From: Veillonella seminalis
GTDB taxonomy: Bacteria; Bacillota; Negativicutes; Veillonellales; Veillonellaceae
NCBI RefSeq assembly: GCF_003992065.1
Contig: NZ_RQUZ01000003.1
Location: forward strand, 1-64,000
Direction: 5' to 3'
Length of the DNA: 64,000 bases
Positions within the stretch are counted from its first letter, which is position 1. The number at the start of each line of letters is the position of its first letter. This document shows, in pieces, positions 5,744-55,899 of this stretch. A program made the position numbers and the translations under genes. The notes under the pieces were generated by a model. That model saw only the letters and a program-made list of their open reading frames with translations. It was not told where the DNA came from and did not search any database.

Positions 5744-7645
5744 TTATTTATATTTCTTAAACAAATAGTAAAATTTAAAAATCAATTTCATCAAATATCG
5801 GTTTTTAGTTTTCTCTATAATAGCCCCAGATAACCATGGACTATTCTTAATAGAATTTATAGAGTCTTCAAAAGATGAAGCTTTTGAACTTAAAATTAAT
5901 GGTCGTAACTCATCAAGAATCACCCTATAATCTTTCCATATTTTTATATCTTCTAGAGTTGGTGTAATTGCAAAGTTTTTAAAGTTTTGCAGGGCTATAT
6001 TGGTACTAATATCTTCATCAATAAATTGATTCATACTAGATTTAAAAAATGACAACGCCCCCCTCTGCAATTCTTGAATATAATACTTTTCGTCAACTTT
6101 CCCTCCTCCAATATACTCGAAGTCAGCTAATATTGGTTCCACTTTATTATCTATAACTTGATAACCTTTAACGCTCCCATGCGGAGCAGTGAGAAATATT
6201 TCTAAAAACATATAACAAAAACGTAATAGGACCTTATACTGCTTGGTTTTATTGCCTGAGTCAAAAAATATATTTCTAGTTGTATTTTCCTCAATTGCAG
6301 AATGCAAATAAAAATAAAAAGGATTTACATCTAAATTCTCTTGTTTTAAATAATATTTTAATGCAAACTCAATGCTACAACCGGCTCCCATGTCAATAAT
6401 ACCAACATTTCCATAAAATTGCTCTTGATAAAAATATGATTGAATAAGTATTGCCTGAGCCTTAGAATCACTGAATATCTGTTCTTTAATAAAATCAAAC
6501 AAAGATTCTACTCGCTGATCAATTTTCAAAGTATCAATATTAAATCTATCTTGACGAGCCAATTTAAATTTGTCTAACACCACATCATCAATTGTAATGC
6601 AAAATCTATCTAACACATATTCTAATGTAAAAGATTTATCCCAAGATTTATAATGTTTCACCATATCGTCAAAAGATTTATCATATTGTAAAATCGGCCT
6701 TATTACAGACTTTCTTGAAATATAAAAATATTTTGAATCTATGTTAGGACAATATAAAGAAAAAGCTTTTTTCAAAATGTATCCATCTCGTGAAAAAAAG
6801 AAAACTTTTTTTAATTTTTTTTGCTCTACTTGTTGCGCTAACCACTTAGTAAAACCTAATAATAATGGACCAAAAACCTCATATCCTATTTTAAAAATAT
6901 CATTTTCTTTAATCGGCATATTATTATTAATAAACCGATTTATCCAATTGTAAGTAAAAATTTCCTGACTAAATAAACCCTCTTCATCATAATAAGTGGG
7001 AAATAATTCCCCTTCATCAATCAAAAATGCAGATAATCCTTGCATTTTTGCCTTTTTAAAGTCAGCATTTTTGTCATTACCAATATGAAGAACTTGAGAT
7101 GGTAATAATCTTTCTTTTTCTAAAACCTTCTTAAATAGTAAACCCTGCTCCCATTTTGTAATCCGTTCATCGCACGAAGAGTAAACTATTTTATGATGTA
7201 AATAATCGTTTTTCTCTAAAATTTTATTAATATCTGATGCACTAAAGTACATATCAGAAATAATGAGAATAGGTTTTTCTATAGATACGCAATAATTATA
7301 AATCTCTTGAAGTTCTTGATTCGCTGTACAAACAAGCAATTCAAGTTCTAACTCCATTTTTTTTATTAAATTTTTTTCACTTTCAATATAACTATCATCA
7401 AAATTTTCATAAATTTCATCGATATTTACTTCTCGATAAGTGCATCTTTTTCTCGCATTAGCCTCAGCCGCAATTCGCGAATCGTATATCTTTTTTGATG
7501 TTCCTAACAACTTATTAACTTTATACTCTAGCAATCTAAATACATCTTTATTGCTTCCAAGATTTCTTTTTATCAAAGTATCAAACACATCAAATGATAT
7601 AACATCATGTTTTGAAATTATTAATTTTAGTTTCTCAAGATCCAT
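5744..7645 (-). CDS. Large HAD-superfamily protein of glycan loci
   Basis: The 633-residue product begins with a complete HAD phosphatase core. Motif I is SFDVFDTLIKR (residues 17-27, with the DxFDT variant), motif II is near LIISDMYFSASD (about 131), and motif IV is HIGNDKNADFKKA (about 187). The remaining 400 residues form a second, uncharacterised region with SRDGYILKKAF and GIIDMGAGCSIEFALKYY, which may be another catalytic domain. Similar long HAD proteins occur inside capsule and O-antigen clusters, where they may act on phosphosugars or handle phospho-linked substituents; the substrate is unknown. Its ATG directly follows the stop codon of the GT4 gene. Confidence 0.7.
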   Translation of the reverse strand: MDLEKLKLIISKHDVISFDVFDTLIKRNLGSNKDVFRLLEYKVNKLLGTSKKIYDSRIAAEANARKRCTYREVNIDEIYENFDDSYIESEKNLIKKMELELELLVCTANQELQEIYNYCVSIEKPILIISDMYFSASDINKILEKNDYLHHKIVYSSCDERITKWEQGLLFKKVLEKERLLPSQVLHIGNDKNADFKKAKMQGLSAFLIDEGELFPTYYDEEGLFSQEIFTYNWINRFINNNMPIKENDIFKIGYEVFGPLLLGFTKWLAQQVEQKKLKKVFFFSRDGYILKKAFSLYCPNIDSKYFYISRKSVIRPILQYDKSFDDMVKHYKSWDKSFTLEYVLDRFCITIDDVVLDKFKLARQDRFNIDTLKIDQRVESLFDFIKEQIFSDSKAQAILIQSYFYQEQFYGNVGIIDMGAGCSIEFALKYYLKQENLDVNPFYFYLHSAIEENTTRNIFFDSGNKTKQYKVLLRFCYMFLEIFLTAPHGSVKGYQVIDNKVEPILADFEYIGGGKVDEKYYIQELQRGALSFFKSSMNQFIDEDISTNIALQNFKNFAITPTLEDIKIWKDYRVILDELRPLILSSKASSFEDSINSIKNSPWLSGAIIEKTKNRYLMKLIFKFYYLFKKYK

Positions 7646-50584: not shown

Positions 50585-50617
50585 AAAAAACACCCACCTC
50601 CCGAAGGAAGTGGGTGT
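50585..50617 (-). terminator. Intrinsic terminator of the first ompM gene
   Basis: Minus-strand ACACCCAC pairs with GTGGGTGT across a TTCCTTCGGGAG-type inner stem, followed by six Ts. It lies about 40 bases after the stop at 50656. Confidence 0.92.
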
Positions 50618-50655
50618 CTTATTTTCACTACTTCTTAATTCTGTTTTACAAGAAA

Positions 50656-51918
50656 TTAGAATTTGTAGTTTAATTCTGCACGGTAGTAATCGCTCAAGTC
50701 ATTACCGTCTTGGTCTTCAGCTGCAAAGCCATAGTATGCGGATAAACCAACATTTTTAGCTAATGCATAGTCAACAGTTGCTAACCAGCCTTTATAGTTT
50801 TGAGATGCAGGCTGATTCCAAGTGGAGCTGAATACAGGAGCTTTTTCAGCTAAATCAAAGTATTGAGCTTTAACATCCCAAGAACCGGCTTCTTTAATGT
50901 TGTAGTTACCGAAACCGATACCTGCTACCCAAGCGTCATTGCCGCCTTCTTTAGCATCTTCAGCAAATGTAGCGTATTCGCCACCAATCCAAACGTTTTT
51001 GAACTGGAAGTCAGCAAAACCGCCATAGATGTCGAAACTGTCGCCATCTAAATTATAAGCACTTGCAAATTTAGAACCGTTATTGTTAGCGAATGCATAG
51101 AAACCACCGATAGTGATGTCATCGCTAAGTTTACCTTGAGCCTGTAACAATGTTACGGAAAGGTTATTATCAGCCGTTGCAGCAGGTACACCTTCAATAA
51201 AGTAACCGTAAGCTGCTAATGCGCTGAATTTACCATTGTCGTATGCCAAAGCAGCACCGTCAAAAGTATCATCATAGATTAAGCCGTTACCAACGAAGGC
51301 GCCGAAACGACCAGCTACAGCCGTAGTGTCTTTACCGAATTTGTGTGCAACATAAACACGGTCAGCAGATACGGAAGCACTACCAGTGTTACCAAATTCA
51401 TTCGAACCTTTAATACGAATAACTGCAGAAGTATTTTCGTTTACTTGAGCATTGAATTGGATACGACCACGATAGTCAAATTTGGACTTTTTGCTTGCGT
51501 TAGTTTTGCTGAACTGGCCTTCCTTTTCATAACCTTCGTATTTCAAACGAACGTCACCAGTAACTTTTACGTTACCAACTTTGTTTTCCAAAGTAGCAAC
51601 ACGAACGCCCAAGTTGTTTAATTCGCTAGCAAATTCATCAGCCAAACGGTTGATCATAGCTTGTTGTTCAGCGTTAGCACGAGCTTCGTTAGCCATAGCT
51701 TTAGCTACCATCTGAGCCATTTCGTAACGAGTGATGTTGTTCTGGCCTTTGAAAGTGCCATCTGGGTAACCGTTGATTACACCAGCTGCTGCCAACTGAG
51801 CTACGCTCTGGTATGCCCAATCGTTAGGAGTTACATCGGAGAATGGGTTTGCTGCGAATGCAGTAGTTACGCCAAGTACAGCAGTTGCTGCAAAAATAGC
51901 TGCAAAACGTTTTTTCAT
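50656..51918 (-). CDS. ompM: OmpM-type SLH-porin, copy 1
   Basis: The 420-residue precursor has a signal peptide (cleaved after AFA near residue 22) and one SLH domain (about residues 24-85: NPFSDVTPNDWAYQSVAQLA, VINGYPDGTFKGQNNITRYE). A short coiled-coil region follows (residues 85-115), then a beta-barrel porin of about 300 residues ending in phenylalanine. In Negativicutes such OmpM proteins tether the outer membrane to polyamine-modified peptidoglycan through the SLH domain and act as general porins. The SLH part is nearly identical among the three copies here; the barrel loops differ. Confidence 0.93.
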   Translation of the reverse strand: MKKRFAAIFAATAVLGVTTAFAANPFSDVTPNDWAYQSVAQLAAAGVINGYPDGTFKGQNNITRYEMAQMVAKAMANEARANAEQQAMINRLADEFASELNNLGVRVATLENKVGNVKVTGDVRLKYEGYEKEGQFSKTNASKKSKFDYRGRIQFNAQVNENTSAVIRIKGSNEFGNTGSASVSADRVYVAHKFGKDTTAVAGRFGAFVGNGLIYDDTFDGAALAYDNGKFSALAAYGYFIEGVPAATADNNLSVTLLQAQGKLSDDITIGGFYAFANNNGSKFASAYNLDGDSFDIYGGFADFQFKNVWIGGEYATFAEDAKEGGNDAWVAGIGFGNYNIKEAGSWDVKAQYFDLAEKAPVFSSTWNQPASQNYKGWLATVDYALAKNVGLSAYYGFAAEDQDGNDLSDYYRAELNYKF

Positions 51919-52016
51919 TGTAATTACCCCTTTCGGTAAAAAACAGAAAAAAGAAATAAAATAGCAGATGGCATCTCATTTCATTCTTCATGTTTCTTTA
52001 CTCATGTAATATACAA

Positions 52017-52039
52017 TGGAGTGTCCATGTTTCCTCACA
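52017..52039 (-). promoter_or_regulatory. Conserved ompM leader box, copy 1
   Basis: Minus-strand GAGGAAACATGGACACTCC with identical flanks (23 bases in all) occurs before all three ompM genes. Here it is 98 bases before the start codon and about 48 bases after the start expected from TTGAAT (52117-52122), 17 bases, TATTAT (52094-52099). Rest of the gap 51919-52337 holds the ompM2 terminator. Confidence 0.75.
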
Positions 52040-52093
52040 CCTTATTACATTTTCTATCAATCATGAAGCTGTCATGACTACCAATCTATGGAC

Positions 52094-52122
52094 ATAATAT
52101 CACACTTGAATTGAAAATTCAA
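52094..52122 (-). promoter_or_regulatory. Promoter of ompM copy 1
   Basis: TTGAAT (52117-52122), 17-base spacer, TATTAT (52094-52099) on the minus strand. The following bases GTCCATAG are shared with the copy 3 promoter region. Confidence 0.65.
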
Positions 52123-52262
52123 AGGTTTTAGTTATGACTATTTCGCATAACTATGCATCTACCTTCTAGAAATAGATTCACTTTCATTAAAATTACATCT
52201 TACGGATCCTTATTTTATCAGCAACTTCTTAAATATTGATTTTTATAGATATTTAAAGCAAC

Positions 52263-52291
52263 AAAAAAAGACAACTTCCGAAGAAGTTGCC
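52263..52291 (-). terminator. Intrinsic terminator of the second ompM gene
   Basis: Minus-strand GGCAACTTC and GAAGTTGTC form a stem with a TTCG-containing loop, followed by seven Ts, 45 bases after the stop at 52338. Confidence 0.92.
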
Positions 52292-52337
52292 TTTTTTATA
52301 TTAGAAACTACTCTGTTACAGTATCCGTTGGGATAGA

Positions 52338-53660
52338 TTAGAACTGGTAGTTCAATTCTGCACGGTAGTAGTCCGGTAAGTCAGCGCCGTCTTGGTTTTC
52401 AGCGTTGAATGCCCAGTAAGCGGACAAGCCAACGTTTTTAGCCAAAGCGTAATCAACAGTAGCCATCCAAGCTTTGTAGTCGGAGTTTACTGGTTGATTC
52501 CAAGTAGAACTGATTACAGGAGCATGTTTAGCCTGGTCGAAGTACTGAACTTTAACGCCCCAAGTACCTTCGTTTTCAATGTCGTAGTTACCTACGCCAA
52601 CACCGGCTACCCAAGCATCTTTACCGTCGTTCTTTACGCCAGTATTCCAATTTTTGTCCCAAGTAGCATATTCGCCACCGATCCACAATTTGTTGAATTG
52701 AAGATCTAAGGAACCGCCATAGATGTCGTTATCTAAGTTATCTAAGCCCCAAGCGTAGAAACCACCGATAGTAGCGTGTTCACCCAAGTTACCTTTAACT
52801 TGTGCAAGAGCTACTTTGTAGTTAGTGTCAGCATCTTTGCTGTCGATGGAAATACCATCTTCAACGGAACGGTTGTCGGAACCATAAGCGCTGAACAAGT
52901 TACCGGTAATGAAGGAACCGTAACCACCGGTCAATGCGAAGTTGCCGTTATCATAAGTAATAGCAGCACCATCGAATGGATCGTCGTATACTAAACCGTT
53001 ACCGATAGTGTTATCGAAACGACCGATTACAGCAGTAGTGTCTTTACCGAATTTATGAGCAACATACATGTTGTCGAATTTAACAGTTGCATCATTTTGT
53101 GCATCGCCAAATTCTACACCATCATAACCGTTATTGTCGCCAGCTGTAACGATACGAACTACAGCGGAAGTGTTGTCAGCTACATTAGCATTGAACTGAA
53201 CACGTGCACGGTAGTCGAACTGGGAACGTTTGTTGCTGTTGTCGTCAGTAGCGAACATACCTTTTTTGTCGGAACCTTGGTAACGAAGACGAGCGTCACC
53301 GGTTACTTTTACGTTACCAACTTTGTTTTCCAAAGTAGCAACACGAACGCCCAAGTTGTTCAATTCGCTAGCAAATTCATCAGCCAAACGGTTGATTATA
53401 GCTTGTTGTTCAGCGTTAGCACGAGCTTCGTTAGCCATAGCTTTAGCTACCATCTGAGCCATTTCGTAACGAGTGATGTTGTTCTGGCCTTTGAAAGTGC
53501 CATCCGGGTAACCGTTGATTACACCGGCTGCTGCCAACTGAGCTACGCTCTGGTATGCCCAGTCGTTAGGAGTTACATCAGAGAATGGGTTAGCTGCGAA
53601 TGCAGTAGTTACGCCAAGTACAGCAGTTGCTGCAAATACGGCTGCAAAACGTTTTTTCAT
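52338..53660 (-). CDS. ompM: OmpM-type SLH-porin, copy 2
   Basis: The 440-residue precursor has the same signal peptide and SLH domain as copy 1 (SLH residues 24-85 almost identical). The barrel ends in an aromatic residue (LNYQF). The barrel part differs from copy 1 mainly in surface-loop-like insertions (for example FSAYGSDNRSVEDGISIDSK and KNWNTGVKNDGKDAW). The role is outer-membrane tethering and diffusion, as in copy 1. The gene stands alone between its own promoter and terminator, so each paralogue can be regulated separately. Confidence 0.93.
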   Translation of the reverse strand: MKKRFAAVFAATAVLGVTTAFAANPFSDVTPNDWAYQSVAQLAAAGVINGYPDGTFKGQNNITRYEMAQMVAKAMANEARANAEQQAIINRLADEFASELNNLGVRVATLENKVGNVKVTGDARLRYQGSDKKGMFATDDNSNKRSQFDYRARVQFNANVADNTSAVVRIVTAGDNNGYDGVEFGDAQNDATVKFDNMYVAHKFGKDTTAVIGRFDNTIGNGLVYDDPFDGAAITYDNGNFALTGGYGSFITGNLFSAYGSDNRSVEDGISIDSKDADTNYKVALAQVKGNLGEHATIGGFYAWGLDNLDNDIYGGSLDLQFNKLWIGGEYATWDKNWNTGVKNDGKDAWVAGVGVGNYDIENEGTWGVKVQYFDQAKHAPVISSTWNQPVNSDYKAWMATVDYALAKNVGLSAYWAFNAENQDGADLPDYYRAELNYQF

Positions 53661-53747
53661 AATAAATTACCTCTTTCCAAAAAAAGATTTAATAATGTTT
53701 GAACCAACACTATCTAATCTTCATTTCAGATACTCAGTAATCTTAAA

Positions 53748-53770
53748 TGGAGTGTCCATGTTTCCTCACA
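53748..53770 (-). promoter_or_regulatory. Conserved ompM leader box, copy 2
   Basis: The same 23-base sequence lies 87 bases before the copy 2 start codon and about 46 bases after the start expected from TTTACA (53846-53851), 17 bases, TACAAT (53823-53828). Confidence 0.75.
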
Positions 53771-53822
53771 AGTGACCGCTTTTCTCATATTAATGAATTT
53801 CGATGTCATTCGTTCTGTAATC

Positions 53823-53851
53823 ATTGTATCGCGGTCTTCATGATTTGTAAA
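53823..53851 (-). promoter_or_regulatory. Promoter of ompM copy 2
   Basis: TTTACA (53846-53851), 17-base spacer, TACAAT (53823-53828), minus strand. The rest of the 753-base gap 53661-54413 is very AT-rich and holds no gene: it has this promoter, the leader box, and the ompM copy 3 terminator. Confidence 0.65.
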
Positions 53852-54234
53852 GAAAACTCGGAATTTGTCCACGAGTTTTCAAGGAAAAATATGATAATTT
53901 TCGATATAATTTCACTTGTAATCCCCATGACTACTTGATTTATCACTCTTTTTCAATTATCACAATATTACACGAATTGTTTATCTAATTTTATAGAGTT
54001 TTCTGGATAAACGCAGTAAATATAAGGCTCTATTCTTTTCGCAAAATACAAAAATATCCAATTTAAAAACAACTTGATTTTCATAATTTAATTTATTTGT
54101 TTTATAGAGTAATTAAAATAACTTTTATATCAATTTTAAGTTTCTTTTTACTAACTTCCCTTTTATGTCTTTTTGGCTGCTTTAAACTTTACAATTCTTT
54201 TACAATATAGCAATTATGACTCACTTGAATACGT

Positions 54235-54273
54235 AAAAAAGAACCGGCCAACACGAAATTTCGTGTCGACCGG
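54235..54273 (-). terminator. Intrinsic terminator of the third ompM gene
   Basis: A GC-rich stem (CCGGTCGACACGA with TCGTGTTGGCCGG, two mismatches) is followed by six Ts on the minus strand, about 140 bases after the stop at 54414. Confidence 0.85.
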
Positions 54274-54413
54274 CCCTTACTTTTTGATCAAAAAATAGCT
54301 TTTTATGATCATTCAGTACTTAAGTTCTTGCTCTTAATTGATATTGTTTTTCAATTGCTATGGTTCTTATTGAACCACTATATTTTATTCTCTATTATAT
54401 ACTTTATTATATA

Positions 54414-55697
54414 TTAGAATTTGTAGTTCAATTCTGCACGGTAGTAATCGCCTAAGTCGTTACCGCTCTGATCTTCCGCATTGAATGCCCAGTAACCGGA
54501 AAGACCTACGTTTTTAGCCAATGCATAATCAACGGATGCCATCCAAGCTTTGTAATCGCTGTTATATGGCTGGTTGAAGGTAGAGCTGATTACAGGAGAG
54601 TATTTACCTTCGTCGAAGTACTGAACTTTAATGCCCCAAGTACCTTCTTTAGCGATATCGTAGTCGCCGTAACCAATGCCGGCTACCCATGCGTCTTTAT
54701 CGTTGGATTGTACCAACGTGCCGTCTTTATCGGAGAAGGTTGCATATTCGCCGCCTAACCAAACTTTACCGTAGTTGAGGTCTAAGGAACCGCCATAGAT
54801 ATCGTTATCTAAGTTTTTGTTACCGAAAGTATAGAAACCGCCAAGAGTTGCATGTTCACCAAGTTTTGCTTTAGCCTGTAACAAGGTTACGGTTGCATTG
54901 TCATCAGCGGAAGCACTGCTGAAGTCATGTGCATAGGAGCTCATGCTACCACTATTGAATAAGCCGCCTTCCATGAAAGAGCCGTAAGCAGCCGTTGCGG
55001 AGAAGTTACCGTTGTCGTAGTTAATAGCTGCACCGTCGAAAGTATCATCGTATACTAACCCGTTACCTACGAAAGCACCGAAACGACCGGCAACTACTGT
55101 AGTATCTTTACCGAATTTGTGAGCTACGTATACGCGATCAAATTCTACATCAGATGTTGTGGAATCACCGAATTCCATATCACCACTGGTTACACGGATA
55201 ACGGCGGATGTGTTGTCATTTACATTAGCATTGAATTGTACACGACCACGCATATCGAACAAGGATTTTTTATTAGTGTTATCGGAGCTGATTTCACCTT
55301 TTTTATCGGAACCTTGGTAACGGAGACGAGCATCACCGGTTACTTTTACATTACCTACTTTGTTTTCCAAGTTAGAAACGCGAACGCCCAAGTTATTCAA
55401 TTCATCGGAGAATTCGTTAGCCAAACGGTTGATCATAGCTTGTTGTTCAGCGTTGGCACGGGTTTCGTTAGCCATGGCTTTAGCTACCATCTGAGCCATT
55501 TCGTAACGAGTGATGTTGTTCTGGCCTTTGAAAGTGCCATCAGGATAACCGTTGATAACACCGGCTGCCGCCAATTGAGCTACACTCTGGTATGCCCAGT
55601 CATTAGGAGTTACATCGGAGAATGGATTAGCGGCGAACGCAGAAGTTACGCCAAGTACGGCAGTGGCCGCAAATACAGCTGCAAAACGTTTTTTCAT
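54414..55697 (-). CDS. ompM: OmpM-type SLH-porin, copy 3
   Basis: The 427-residue precursor has the signal peptide (cleavage near AFA) and SLH domain shared with the other copies, a coiled coil and a porin barrel ending LNYKF. The barrel carries its own loop insertions (for example MSSYAHDFSSASADD). It is the first of the three in transcription order. Promoter and terminator are separate from the others. Functional role as in copy 1. Confidence 0.93.
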   Translation of the reverse strand: MKKRFAAVFAATAVLGVTSAFAANPFSDVTPNDWAYQSVAQLAAAGVINGYPDGTFKGQNNITRYEMAQMVAKAMANETRANAEQQAMINRLANEFSDELNNLGVRVSNLENKVGNVKVTGDARLRYQGSDKKGEISSDNTNKKSLFDMRGRVQFNANVNDNTSAVIRVTSGDMEFGDSTTSDVEFDRVYVAHKFGKDTTVVAGRFGAFVGNGLVYDDTFDGAAINYDNGNFSATAAYGSFMEGGLFNSGSMSSYAHDFSSASADDNATVTLLQAKAKLGEHATLGGFYTFGNKNLDNDIYGGSLDLNYGKVWLGGEYATFSDKDGTLVQSNDKDAWVAGIGYGDYDIAKEGTWGIKVQYFDEGKYSPVISSTFNQPYNSDYKAWMASVDYALAKNVGLSGYWAFNAEDQSGNDLGDYYRAELNYKF

Positions 55698-55788
55698 AAT
55701 TATTACCCCTTTCAGAATAAAACAACTAAAAATATATTTTCGGTTGTCAGCTTCCGAAACAGATGGATTAAGAAATAATAGTTTCGAC

Positions 55789-55811
55789 TGGAGTGTCCAT
55801 GTTTCCTCACA
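55789..55811 (-). promoter_or_regulatory. Conserved ompM leader box, copy 3
   Basis: The same 23-base sequence lies 91 bases before the copy 3 start codon and about 54 bases after the start expected from TTTTGA (55894-55899), 16 bases, TATTAT (55872-55877). Confidence 0.75.
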
Positions 55812-55871
55812 ATGTAATTGTATTATTTCGTTAACTCAGTTGTTTCATCGTCTGAACTAACCTATGGACAC

Positions 55872-55899
55872 ATAATACCAATGAAAACTAAAATCAAAA
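55872..55899 (-). promoter_or_regulatory. Promoter of ompM copy 3
   Basis: TTTTGA (55894-55899), 16-base spacer, TATTAT (55872-55877), minus strand, followed by a GTCCATAG stretch as in copy 1. Confidence 0.55.

Follow-up and report, generated by a model that had tools for sequence, protein, structure and literature searches.

A conserved RNA cap in the leaders of ompM genes and a proposed translation switch for outer-membrane tethers and porins

Introduction

Three OmpM-type genes lie close together in a 64,000-nucleotide stretch of Veillonella seminalis DNA (contig NZ_RQUZ01000003.1, positions 1 to 64,000; hereafter the window), and the same 23-base box stands in the leader of each. What does this box do, and does it bear on the amount of OmpM that is made? 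According to PMC10628300, most two-membraned Terrabacteria use OmpM-type proteins as their outer-membrane tether. An explanation of what determines the quantity of these proteins was found neither in that paper, where the words promoter, operon, untranslated and upstream are absent, nor in PMC9388160, where regulat-, untranslated and leader are absent.

The box and its cap

The box, TGTGAGGAAACATGGACACTCCA on the minus strand, occurs in three identical copies at 52017-52039, 53748-53770 and 55789-55811, as the preliminary description had it. The spacing given there (87-98 bases before the start codon, 46-54 after the predicted transcription start) also holds: the 3′ end of the box is 98 (ompM-a), 87 (ompM-b) and 91 (ompM-c) bases from the start codon, and the predicted transcription starts near 52087, 53816 and 55865, placed 7 bases after the -10, lie 48, 46 and 54 bases upstream of the box. 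A 19-base core is found three times in the window against none expected from shuffles, and three times genome-wide, once per ompM leader, even when up to three mismatches are allowed. A search with the full box at up to three mismatches gave no fourth locus on either strand of the whole genome.

In relatives, 18 bases of the box are conserved, the outer TGT and CA being lineage-specific. They form what we call the cap, a GAG/CTC clamp closing the 12-base loop GAAAC-NN-GGA-N-A, in which nine positions are fixed (search pattern for leaders of SLH-porin genes: GAGGAAACNNGGANACTC). Three of the 12 loop positions differ among the element copies of one genome (G012). The features of the three loci are listed in Table 1.

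Table 1. Genes, predicted signals and cap elements at the three ompM loci of the window
Feature	Position	Strand	Remarks
ompM-a, SLH + porin, 420 aa	50656..51918	-	
ompM-b, SLH + porin, 440 aa	52338..53660	-	
ompM-c, SLH protein, 427 aa	54414..55697	-	no Pfam porin match
ompM-a predicted sigma-70 promoter	52094..52122	-	TTGAAT-17-TATTAT
ompM-b predicted sigma-70 promoter	53823..53851	-	TTTACA-17-TACAAT
ompM-c predicted promoter	55872..55899	-	weak -35, -10 TATTAT; outside the program-made promoter list
Predicted terminator after ompM-a	50587..50620	-	
Predicted terminator after ompM-b	52264..52297	-	
Predicted terminator after ompM-c	54239..54278	-	
ompM-a leader cap, GAG + 12-base loop + CTC	52019..52036	-	inside box 52017-52039; conserved in relatives
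ompM-b leader cap	53750..53767	-	inside box 53748-53770
ompM-c leader cap	55791..55808	-	inside box 55789-55811
Cap hairpin ompM-a	51995..52057	-	main stem 52050-52004; model R1 E 4.5e-15, copy in training set; fold
Cap hairpin ompM-b	53726..53788	-	R1 E 1.8e-13, copy in training set; stem weak by energy
Cap hairpin ompM-c	55767..55829	-	main stem 55829-55772; R1 E 2.9e-15, copy in training set; fold
ompM-a 3′ arm	51994..52018	-	alternative partner of ribosome-binding/start region 51915-51942; 1/500 shuffled arms as good
ompM-b 3′ arm	53723..53749	-	alternative partner of ribosome-binding/start region 53657-53683; 16/500 shuffled arms as good
ompM-c 3′ arm	55769..55788	-	possible partner of ribosome-binding/start region 55693-55712; 157/500 as good, not significant alone

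Distribution and downstream genes

The preliminary description had proposed a search of related genomes, and the element proved to be widespread. Among 380 genomes of the class, 234 carry the 18-base core; so do 21 of 50 from the phylum to which an Atribacteria locus belongs and, after removal of chance matches, 13 of 201 from that of an Armatimonadetes locus. In a sister family, 16 of the 17 genomes have it in a form with a 13-base loop. Within the Negativicutes, the element turns up in the class search and, among the matches listed, in named records of Negativicutes genera. It occurs in several phyla with clade-specific loop variants, which points to an ancient element in the regulation of outer-membrane genes.

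Downstream proteins were judged in a random draw of 149 from 171 leaders (a few starts mis-called), a set that leaves out chance loci, one masked locus, ORFs shorter than 60 aa, sites less than 150 bases from the locus end and near-duplicate leaders. An SLH domain (Pfam) was found in 132 of the 149, and Porin_4 in four of the ten scanned proteins among those without SLH. We prefer the Pfam count to that of an SLH regular expression (182/214), which is loose and also passed two viral loci. As the model search was run at E <= 0.1 per genome, some weak matches are due to chance, such as L011; this locus was set aside together with L005, L212, L228, L231, L239, L258, L325, L326, L329 and two identical viral matches (L285/L286). 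By eye, L326 and L239 look like hemC coding sequence.

In 63 of the 171 leaders a strong promoter is predicted upstream of the box, against about nine expected, and in five it falls between the box and the start codon. The box stands at a median of 34 bases after the predicted +1 in these 63 leaders.

A covarying hairpin

Sequence comparison places the repeated box at the tip of a covarying RNA hairpin within the predicted transcript. In the order-level set of 33 non-redundant sites, native flanks reach -13.4 versus -10.2 kcal/mol for swapped flanks (z -8.8; 0 of 2000 permutations). A wider set of 166 sites, which still included six chance loci, gives -19.2 versus -13.3 (z -31; 60 permutations), and the minimum-energy fold contains the exact cap loop at 147 native and 40 swapped sites. 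While the stem varies in sequence, its pairing is preserved and the flanks of the box covary: the covariation score is 0.316 versus 0.151 when shuffled and at most 0.200 when slid, or 0.368 versus 0.153 and at most 0.217 for 73 rows aligned to the model, an alignment that leans toward the model's own structure. Two of the five measures in the first covariation test were not clearly above shuffles (222 and 40 of 500 reach them). The outer clamp pair is G-C in 70 and A-U in two of 72 model-aligned rows and never unpaired; A-U is also seen in six of the 166 sites, for which the search pattern admitted paired combinations only. Bulges differ from site to site, and there is no conserved junction. 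None of the covariance models of Rfam 15 matched at its gathering score, the five sub-threshold matches all being to unrelated families.

The three leaders of the window differ in stem strength. None of 500 shuffled arms pairs as well with the 5′ arm in ompM-a and 44 do so in ompM-c, whereas 171 are equally good in ompM-b, whose stem is thus not significant. Folded with the cap, the leaders reach -49.8, -42.8 and -42.1 (order a, b, c), compared with -47.0, -42.7 and -40.7 for the best folds with the clamp bases unpaired; the best fold of the whole ompM-b leader (-43.5) lacks the cap. A small hairpin within the box, TGGA-CAC-TCCA, had been put forward earlier and does appear in some local folds, yet the base that follows CTC is not constant within the class. 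Because of this variation and the covariation of the flanks, the mini-hairpin is not the conserved feature. The stem itself, the complementarity treated below and the wide distribution are absent from that description.

Pairing of the 3′ arm with the ribosome-binding region

In translational riboswitches the Shine-Dalgarno sequence is sequestered by one of two overlapping folds, which covers the ribosome-binding site. An alternative pairing over this site was found by computation in the cap leaders as well, except in the Armatimonadetes set. The 3′ arm pairs better with its own ribosome-binding region than with swapped ones (z -18.8, n = 168) and better than shuffled arms do (z -17.8 and -24). 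The advantage persists with GC-matched swaps, a control that covers the Shine-Dalgarno test only (native -13.7 versus -10.4, n = 167). Against the same region, the control segments score z -2.2 (5′ arm), -3.3 (upstream leader) and +1.3 (box). The complementarity thus exceeds its controls in this Negativicutes-dominated set. In the sets from other phyla, the Atribacteria arms beat shuffles (z -10.1, n = 16) and weakly beat swaps (z -2.4, n = 14), and the Armatimonadetes arms (n = 13) are not significant (z -0.4 swapped, -1.8 shuffled).

Since the 3′ arm is able to pair with its own Shine-Dalgarno/start region, two competing folds are predicted. In 152 of 168 leaders the hairpin also uses half or more of the arm bases engaged in the Shine-Dalgarno duplex, and the duplex spans at least four of the six Shine-Dalgarno bases in 136 of 164 (a count without control). 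The signal per leader is modest: a median of 10% of shuffled arms equal the native one, and 53 of 168 native arms beat all 20. When the 5′ arm is removed in ensemble folding, Shine-Dalgarno accessibility falls moderately, from 0.33 to 0.22, with a drop of more than 0.2 in 46 of 164 native leaders versus 22 of 154 swapped controls.

Other pairings were tried and rejected. The box shows no such partner in the 5′ leader, mid-leader, ribosome-binding region or gene start (z -1.2, +2.1, +1.3 and +1.1), and the 5′ arm as a Shine-Dalgarno mimic gave no clear excess. GTGTCCAT, which lies close to the -10 in two leaders, was considered as a box partner; ompM-b lacks it and, by eye, it is not general in relatives.

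A proposed switch and its rivals

Our preferred reading, to which we assign a probability of about two in three, is a cis-acting translation switch in which the cap hairpin and the Shine-Dalgarno pairing draw on the same arm, and a cap-reading factor sets ompM translation. The hairpin in the 5′ leader of the ompM mRNA would present the GAAAC-NN-GGA-N-A loop closed by GAG/CTC, as conservation and covariation indicate. In one fold the cap is formed and the ribosome-binding site would be freer; in the other the cap is open and the site would be covered. We infer that these folds compete in the cell. A factor recognising the cap might shift the balance and with it the translation, perhaps also the stability, of the main outer-membrane tether/porin, and a bound factor that makes the cap more stable would promote translation. 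This could let the cell adjust porin synthesis to what the envelope requires without relying on Hfq-dependent porin sRNAs. A protein is the likelier reader, ahead of a small molecule or an sRNA.

That the cap loop itself directly binds a small molecule or ion and so gates the ribosome-binding site is unlikely, though a riboswitch would suit the compact, largely invariant loop and the overlapping Shine-Dalgarno pairing, and the 'SLH motif' is listed as a riboswitch candidate in the text of Stav et al. 2019 (PMC6429828). For an aptamer, a single hairpin whose bulges vary by site and which lacks a conserved junction is small, and no metabolite evidently links the genes, which encode structural porins. 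Rather improbable is a 5′-terminal stabiliser guarding a highly expressed mRNA from decay, its loop read by an RNase or accessory protein. The box does lie close to the predicted 5′ end (the median of 34 bases in the 63 strong cases), and three OmpM proteins are described as among the most abundant in the Veillonella parvula outer-membrane fraction (PMC5491611); but neither the match of the 3′ arm to the Shine-Dalgarno region nor nine loop bases fixed across phyla is predicted by such a role.

The preliminary description took the box for a post-transcriptional element. A covarying hairpin in the predicted transcript, before genes for SLH-porins and some other porins in several phyla, favours this view, while its sRNA version is weakened. 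A trans-acting sRNA pairing with the loop, as in enteric porins, would have a suitable target in the conserved, unpaired 12-base loop of the porin leaders, but it now appears distinctly improbable: a single genome shows differences at three of the 12 loop positions, the full box has no fourth locus at up to three mismatches on either strand, and the seed would need to be kept across phyla. Furthermore, Hfq (PF17209) is unmatched in nine of the ten same-order genomes sampled, among them the window's own and the eight others tested from its own family (f1) and sister family f4, all eight of which bear the element; in the class it matches in 64 of 80 genomes. CsrA (PF02599) was also considered, as the loop resembles its consensus ACANGGA, but it is unmatched in the window's own genome and the nine others sampled from the order (matches in 50 of 80 genomes of the class). 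As neither protein was found in the window's genome, neither is the general cap reader.

It is most improbable that the loop provides a start codon behind an SD-like GAGG, so that ompM is controlled through the translation of a short ORF. Loop positions 6-8 do read ATG in 97, GTG in 51 and TTG in six of 171 leaders, yet they read AAG, ACG, CAG, GAG or TAG in 17, CAG at the listed sites of one genus of the class (g44) and AGG in 11 of the 22 sites of the Atribacteria set, where the cap fold is kept. There is no clear coding signal either (the first stop comes after a median of 57, 54 and 39 bases in the respective frames); without a conserved start codon and frame, an upstream ORF was rejected as the element's general role. 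A DNA operator for a transcription factor would also fit short boxes that are identical and similarly spaced from predicted promoters, an explanation we find scarcely credible, given flanks that covary as an RNA stem, an outer clamp pair that changes in compensation and a site downstream of the predicted promoters.

Beyond the switch itself, we advance only tentatively, with the odds against it, that in lineages ranging from Negativicutes to Atribacteria and Armatimonadetes one RNA-binding factor reads GAAAC-NN-GGA-N-A in the leaders of SLH tethers and other porins, and tunes their translation via the Shine-Dalgarno switch. The cap would then be the half, carried by the leader, of an old system of outer-membrane-protein homeostasis in two-membraned bacteria outside the Proteobacteria, replacing sigma-E and porin sRNAs.

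Relation to known systems

In enteric bacteria MicF, OmrA/B and other Hfq-dependent sRNAs control porin mRNAs. The cap element resembles this system in the post-transcriptional control of outer-membrane protein genes proposed here, but Hfq is unmatched in the window's genome and the conserved part is a structured cap rather than a plain pairing site. With translational riboswitches it shares two overlapping predicted folds, but it is a single hairpin with no known ligand. In the iron-responsive element, a protein-read hairpin, the loop is invariant and the stem sequence free; the cap likewise joins an invariant loop to a free stem, though loop sequence and size differ. In Thermus thermophilus, the slpA 5′ untranslated region exerts leader-based control of an SLH-containing envelope protein; the cap element is a candidate for control of this kind.

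Closest is the 'SLH motif', a candidate structured leader RNA described with 80 examples from Synergistaceae, Clostridia and Negativicutes, about 60% of them before SLH-domain genes (Stav et al. 2019, PMC6429828). Compared by text description alone, this 2019 riboswitch candidate is probably the cap element: both occur in Negativicutes and upstream of SLH-domain genes (132/149 here). The cap loop, Shine-Dalgarno pairing, non-SLH porins, Atribacteria and Armatimonadetes are not mentioned in the part of that paper's text compared.

A cap that can be mutated and a predicted switch make the question of OmpM amount directly testable in Veillonella parvula SKV38, and the cap RNA may serve as bait for finding its reader. 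The SKV38 strain carries three copies of the element.

RNA hairpin in the ompM leaders

The leaders of the three tandem minus-strand ompM genes had been described as sharing an identical 23-base repeat (the box), and this identity is borne out at all three positions. Its 19-base core occurs at three sites in the 2.25 Mb own genome (GCF_003992065.1; <=3 mismatches), with none expected in shuffles of the window. The box is part of an RNA hairpin, the cap element, in which GAG, a 12-base loop and CTC stand on a variable stem. In relatives, the box is constant and its surroundings have diverged, yet the two flanks vary in concert. At 33 non-redundant sites of the order Veillonellales, the fold reaches -13.4 kcal/mol with native flanks versus -10.2 with flanks swapped between sites (z -8.8), and 0 of 2000 permutations match native folding. 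The covariation score of 46 aligned sites is 0.316, compared to 0.151 for shuffled and 0.10-0.20 for slid partners, with two of five measures lacking a clear excess over shuffles. In a wider set of 166 non-redundant sites, which still includes six chance loci, the values are -19.2 (native) and -13.3 (swapped; z -31 over 60 permutations), and the minimum-energy fold contains the exact GAG-12 bases-CTC loop in 147 versus 40 of the 166. Within the order, the exact loop is present in the local minimum-energy fold at 52 of 69 sites.

Among the 73 rows aligned to the model, 70 have G-C and two have A-U as the outer clamp pair, and in none is it unpaired; a pattern search that allowed paired combinations only gave 160 G-C and 6 A-U. 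Below the clamp, bulges and internal loops vary from one site to another. Loop constants are G-A-A-A-C, G-G-A and the final A, while positions 6, 7 and the base following GGA are variable. Loop positions 6-8 read ATG in 97, GTG in 51, TTG in six and CTG in none of 171 leaders; these frequencies follow the usual order of start-codon use, and 17 leaders carry non-start triplets.

Position in the transcript

All three ompM products are SLH-domain proteins, two of them with a Pfam porin match. Each gene has its own predicted promoter, and the box lies 46-54 bases past the predicted +1, as the preliminary description had it. Because a strong terminator is predicted behind each gene, the tandem genes probably form three separate transcripts.

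Coordinates of features in the ompM region
Feature	Position	Location	Basis
Box	52017-52039	ompM-a leader	
Box	53748-53770	ompM-b leader	
Box	55789-55811	ompM-c leader	
Terminator, strong	50587-50620	after ompM-a	prediction
Terminator, strong	52264-52297	after ompM-b	prediction
Terminator, strong	54239-54278	after ompM-c	prediction
GTCCAT / GTGTCCAT	52086-52093 (minus strand)	immediately 3' of -10, ompM-a	
GTCCAT / GTGTCCAT	55864-55871 (minus strand)	immediately 3' of -10, ompM-c	

Across relatives, a strong sigma-70 promoter is predicted to precede the box in 63 of 171 leaders, where about 9 would be expected at the 5% threshold; in five leaders one falls between the box and the start codon. 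Since most of these promoters lie upstream and, in strong-promoter leaders, the median distance from +1 to the first base of the box is 34 bases, the hairpin is predicted to lie near the mRNA 5' end. The motif following the -10 (GTCCAT / GTGTCCAT) is complementary to ATGGAC(AC) of the box and is not present in ompM-b.

Proposed competing pairing of the 3' arm

In the competing-fold model, the 3' arm of the hairpin would pair either with the 5' arm or with the Shine-Dalgarno/start region of the leader. The 3' arm is indeed complementary to the ribosome-binding region of its own leader (mean duplex -13.7 native versus -10.3 swapped; z -18.8, n = 168); swap controls on the same region give z -2.2 for the 5' arm, -3.3 for the upstream leader and +1.3 for the box. 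The effect persists with GC-matched swaps (-13.7 versus -10.4, n = 167) and against dinucleotide-shuffled arms (z -17.8 and -24). It is modest in single leaders, where a median of 10% of shuffles equal the native arm; all 20 are outdone in 53 of 168 leaders. In 152 of 168 leaders, the hairpin also uses half or more of the arm bases in this duplex. By clade, the complementarity is upheld for the order, with z -5.5 and -5.1 at n = 33, and, by the shuffle control alone, for the sister family f4 (z -4.7, n = 18); in an Atribacteria set it is strong versus shuffles (-10.1, n = 16) and weak versus swaps (-2.4, n = 14), and in an Armatimonadetes set it is not significant (z -0.4 and -1.8, n = 13).

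Ensemble folding points to a modest shift in the expected direction: the unpaired probability of the Shine-Dalgarno is 0.33 with the cap enforced and 0.22 with the 5' arm removed, and 46 of 164 native leaders lose more than 0.2 of accessibility, versus 22 of 154 swapped ones (p 0.0002). Among the window's genes, ompM-a supports both pairings (shuffles as good: 0/500 for the hairpin, 1/500 for the ribosome-binding region), ompM-b the ribosome-binding pairing only (171/500 and 16/500) and ompM-c neither firmly (44/500 and 157/500). Whole-leader folds of ompM-a, -b and -c reach -49.8, -42.8 and -42.1 with the cap versus -47.0, -42.7 and -40.7 with the clamp bases held unpaired; the overall best fold of ompM-b (-43.5) lacks the cap.

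Candidate readers and relation to known RNAs

RNA control of ompM, as suggested in the preliminary description, is retained only in part, its sRNA component having lost ground. A base-pairing sRNA is disfavoured as reader, since the own genome holds no fourth locus matching the box (<=3 mismatches) and loop positions differ between copies within one genome; an sRNA with a short seed may still act on the cap. CsrA and Hfq are found in 50 and 64 of 80 genomes of the class Negativicutes, respectively. Among ten sampled genomes of the order, however, CsrA has no match in any and Hfq none in nine, the own genome included in both cases. As nine of these ten carry the element, its general reader can be neither CsrA nor Hfq.

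Against Rfam 15, neither this stretch nor any of 20 other loci has a match at threshold. The text of Stav et al. 2019 (PMC6429828) describes a riboswitch candidate, the 'SLH motif', for which 80 examples are given from Synergistaceae, Clostridia and Negativicutes, around 60% of them before SLH-domain genes. Likened from this text description rather than the drawn consensus, it is probably the cap element. Neither SLH nor S-layer occurs in the main text of PMC8632094 or of PMC11109978, and a literature search, mostly at listing level, found no functional study of the element. Given this probable identity and the absence of a functional study from the search, we place the element with an already known kind of RNA; new here are the mechanistic model and a range wider than the text of Stav et al. 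gives.

Distribution and downstream genes

R1, a model of the cap hairpin, has matches in 44 of the order's 61 genomes. In the class it matches 161 of 200 genomes, or 67 of 81 genera; the threshold (E <= 0.1 per genome) admits some chance matches. The exact pattern is present in 234 of 380 class genomes, with two matches for the reversed control pattern. Named loci among the matches listed include Limnochordia, unplaced Bacillota MAGs, Selenomonas, Sporomusa, Pelosinus, Dialister and Phascolarctobacterium. For an Atribacteria locus, the phylum of its genome has matches in 21 of 50 genomes (control: one); the cap folds exactly at 22/22 sites, and an SLH protein follows 21 of these (by eye), the remaining site having no called ORF. 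For an Armatimonadetes locus, the corresponding count is 16 of 201 genomes (control: 0); after removal of three chance sites (L325, L326, L329), 14 sites in 13 genomes are left, 12 with the exact cap fold. A small phylum of MAGs has matches in four of seven genomes, two of which fold to the exact cap.

An SLH domain (Pfam) is present in 132 of 149 downstream proteins drawn from the 171 leaders. Ten non-SLH proteins were scanned: four match Porin_4 (E 0.0001 or better, one under Pfam's cut-off), two more show only weak similarity to other envelope families, and the last four have no match. Five chance loci among the matches listed (Rhodococcus, Dyella, a Nitrososphaera MAG and two others) have neither the cap fold nor an evident outer-membrane gene. 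Two IMG/VR viral contigs (L285, L286) carry an identical cap-like sequence ahead of an ATPase-like gene; its local fold does form the cap loop, and these matches are probably due to chance.

The genome taken as V. parvula SKV38 has three R1 matches only, within one ~4 kb cluster, so the fourth ompM of V. parvula, Vpar_0227, placed at another locus in PMC5491611, would be without the element. In the family f4, probably Megasphaeraceae judging from its proteins, 16 of 17 genomes carry a loop of 13 bases with one additional A (GGA-N-AACTC; L341-L360), a natural variant useful for probing loop recognition. In a Bacillota MAG (L168), two caps (5847-5864 and 7552-7569) each precede one of two successive signal-peptide genes, the first of which matches Porin_4; the second cap has a compensated A-U clamp (AAG...CTT).
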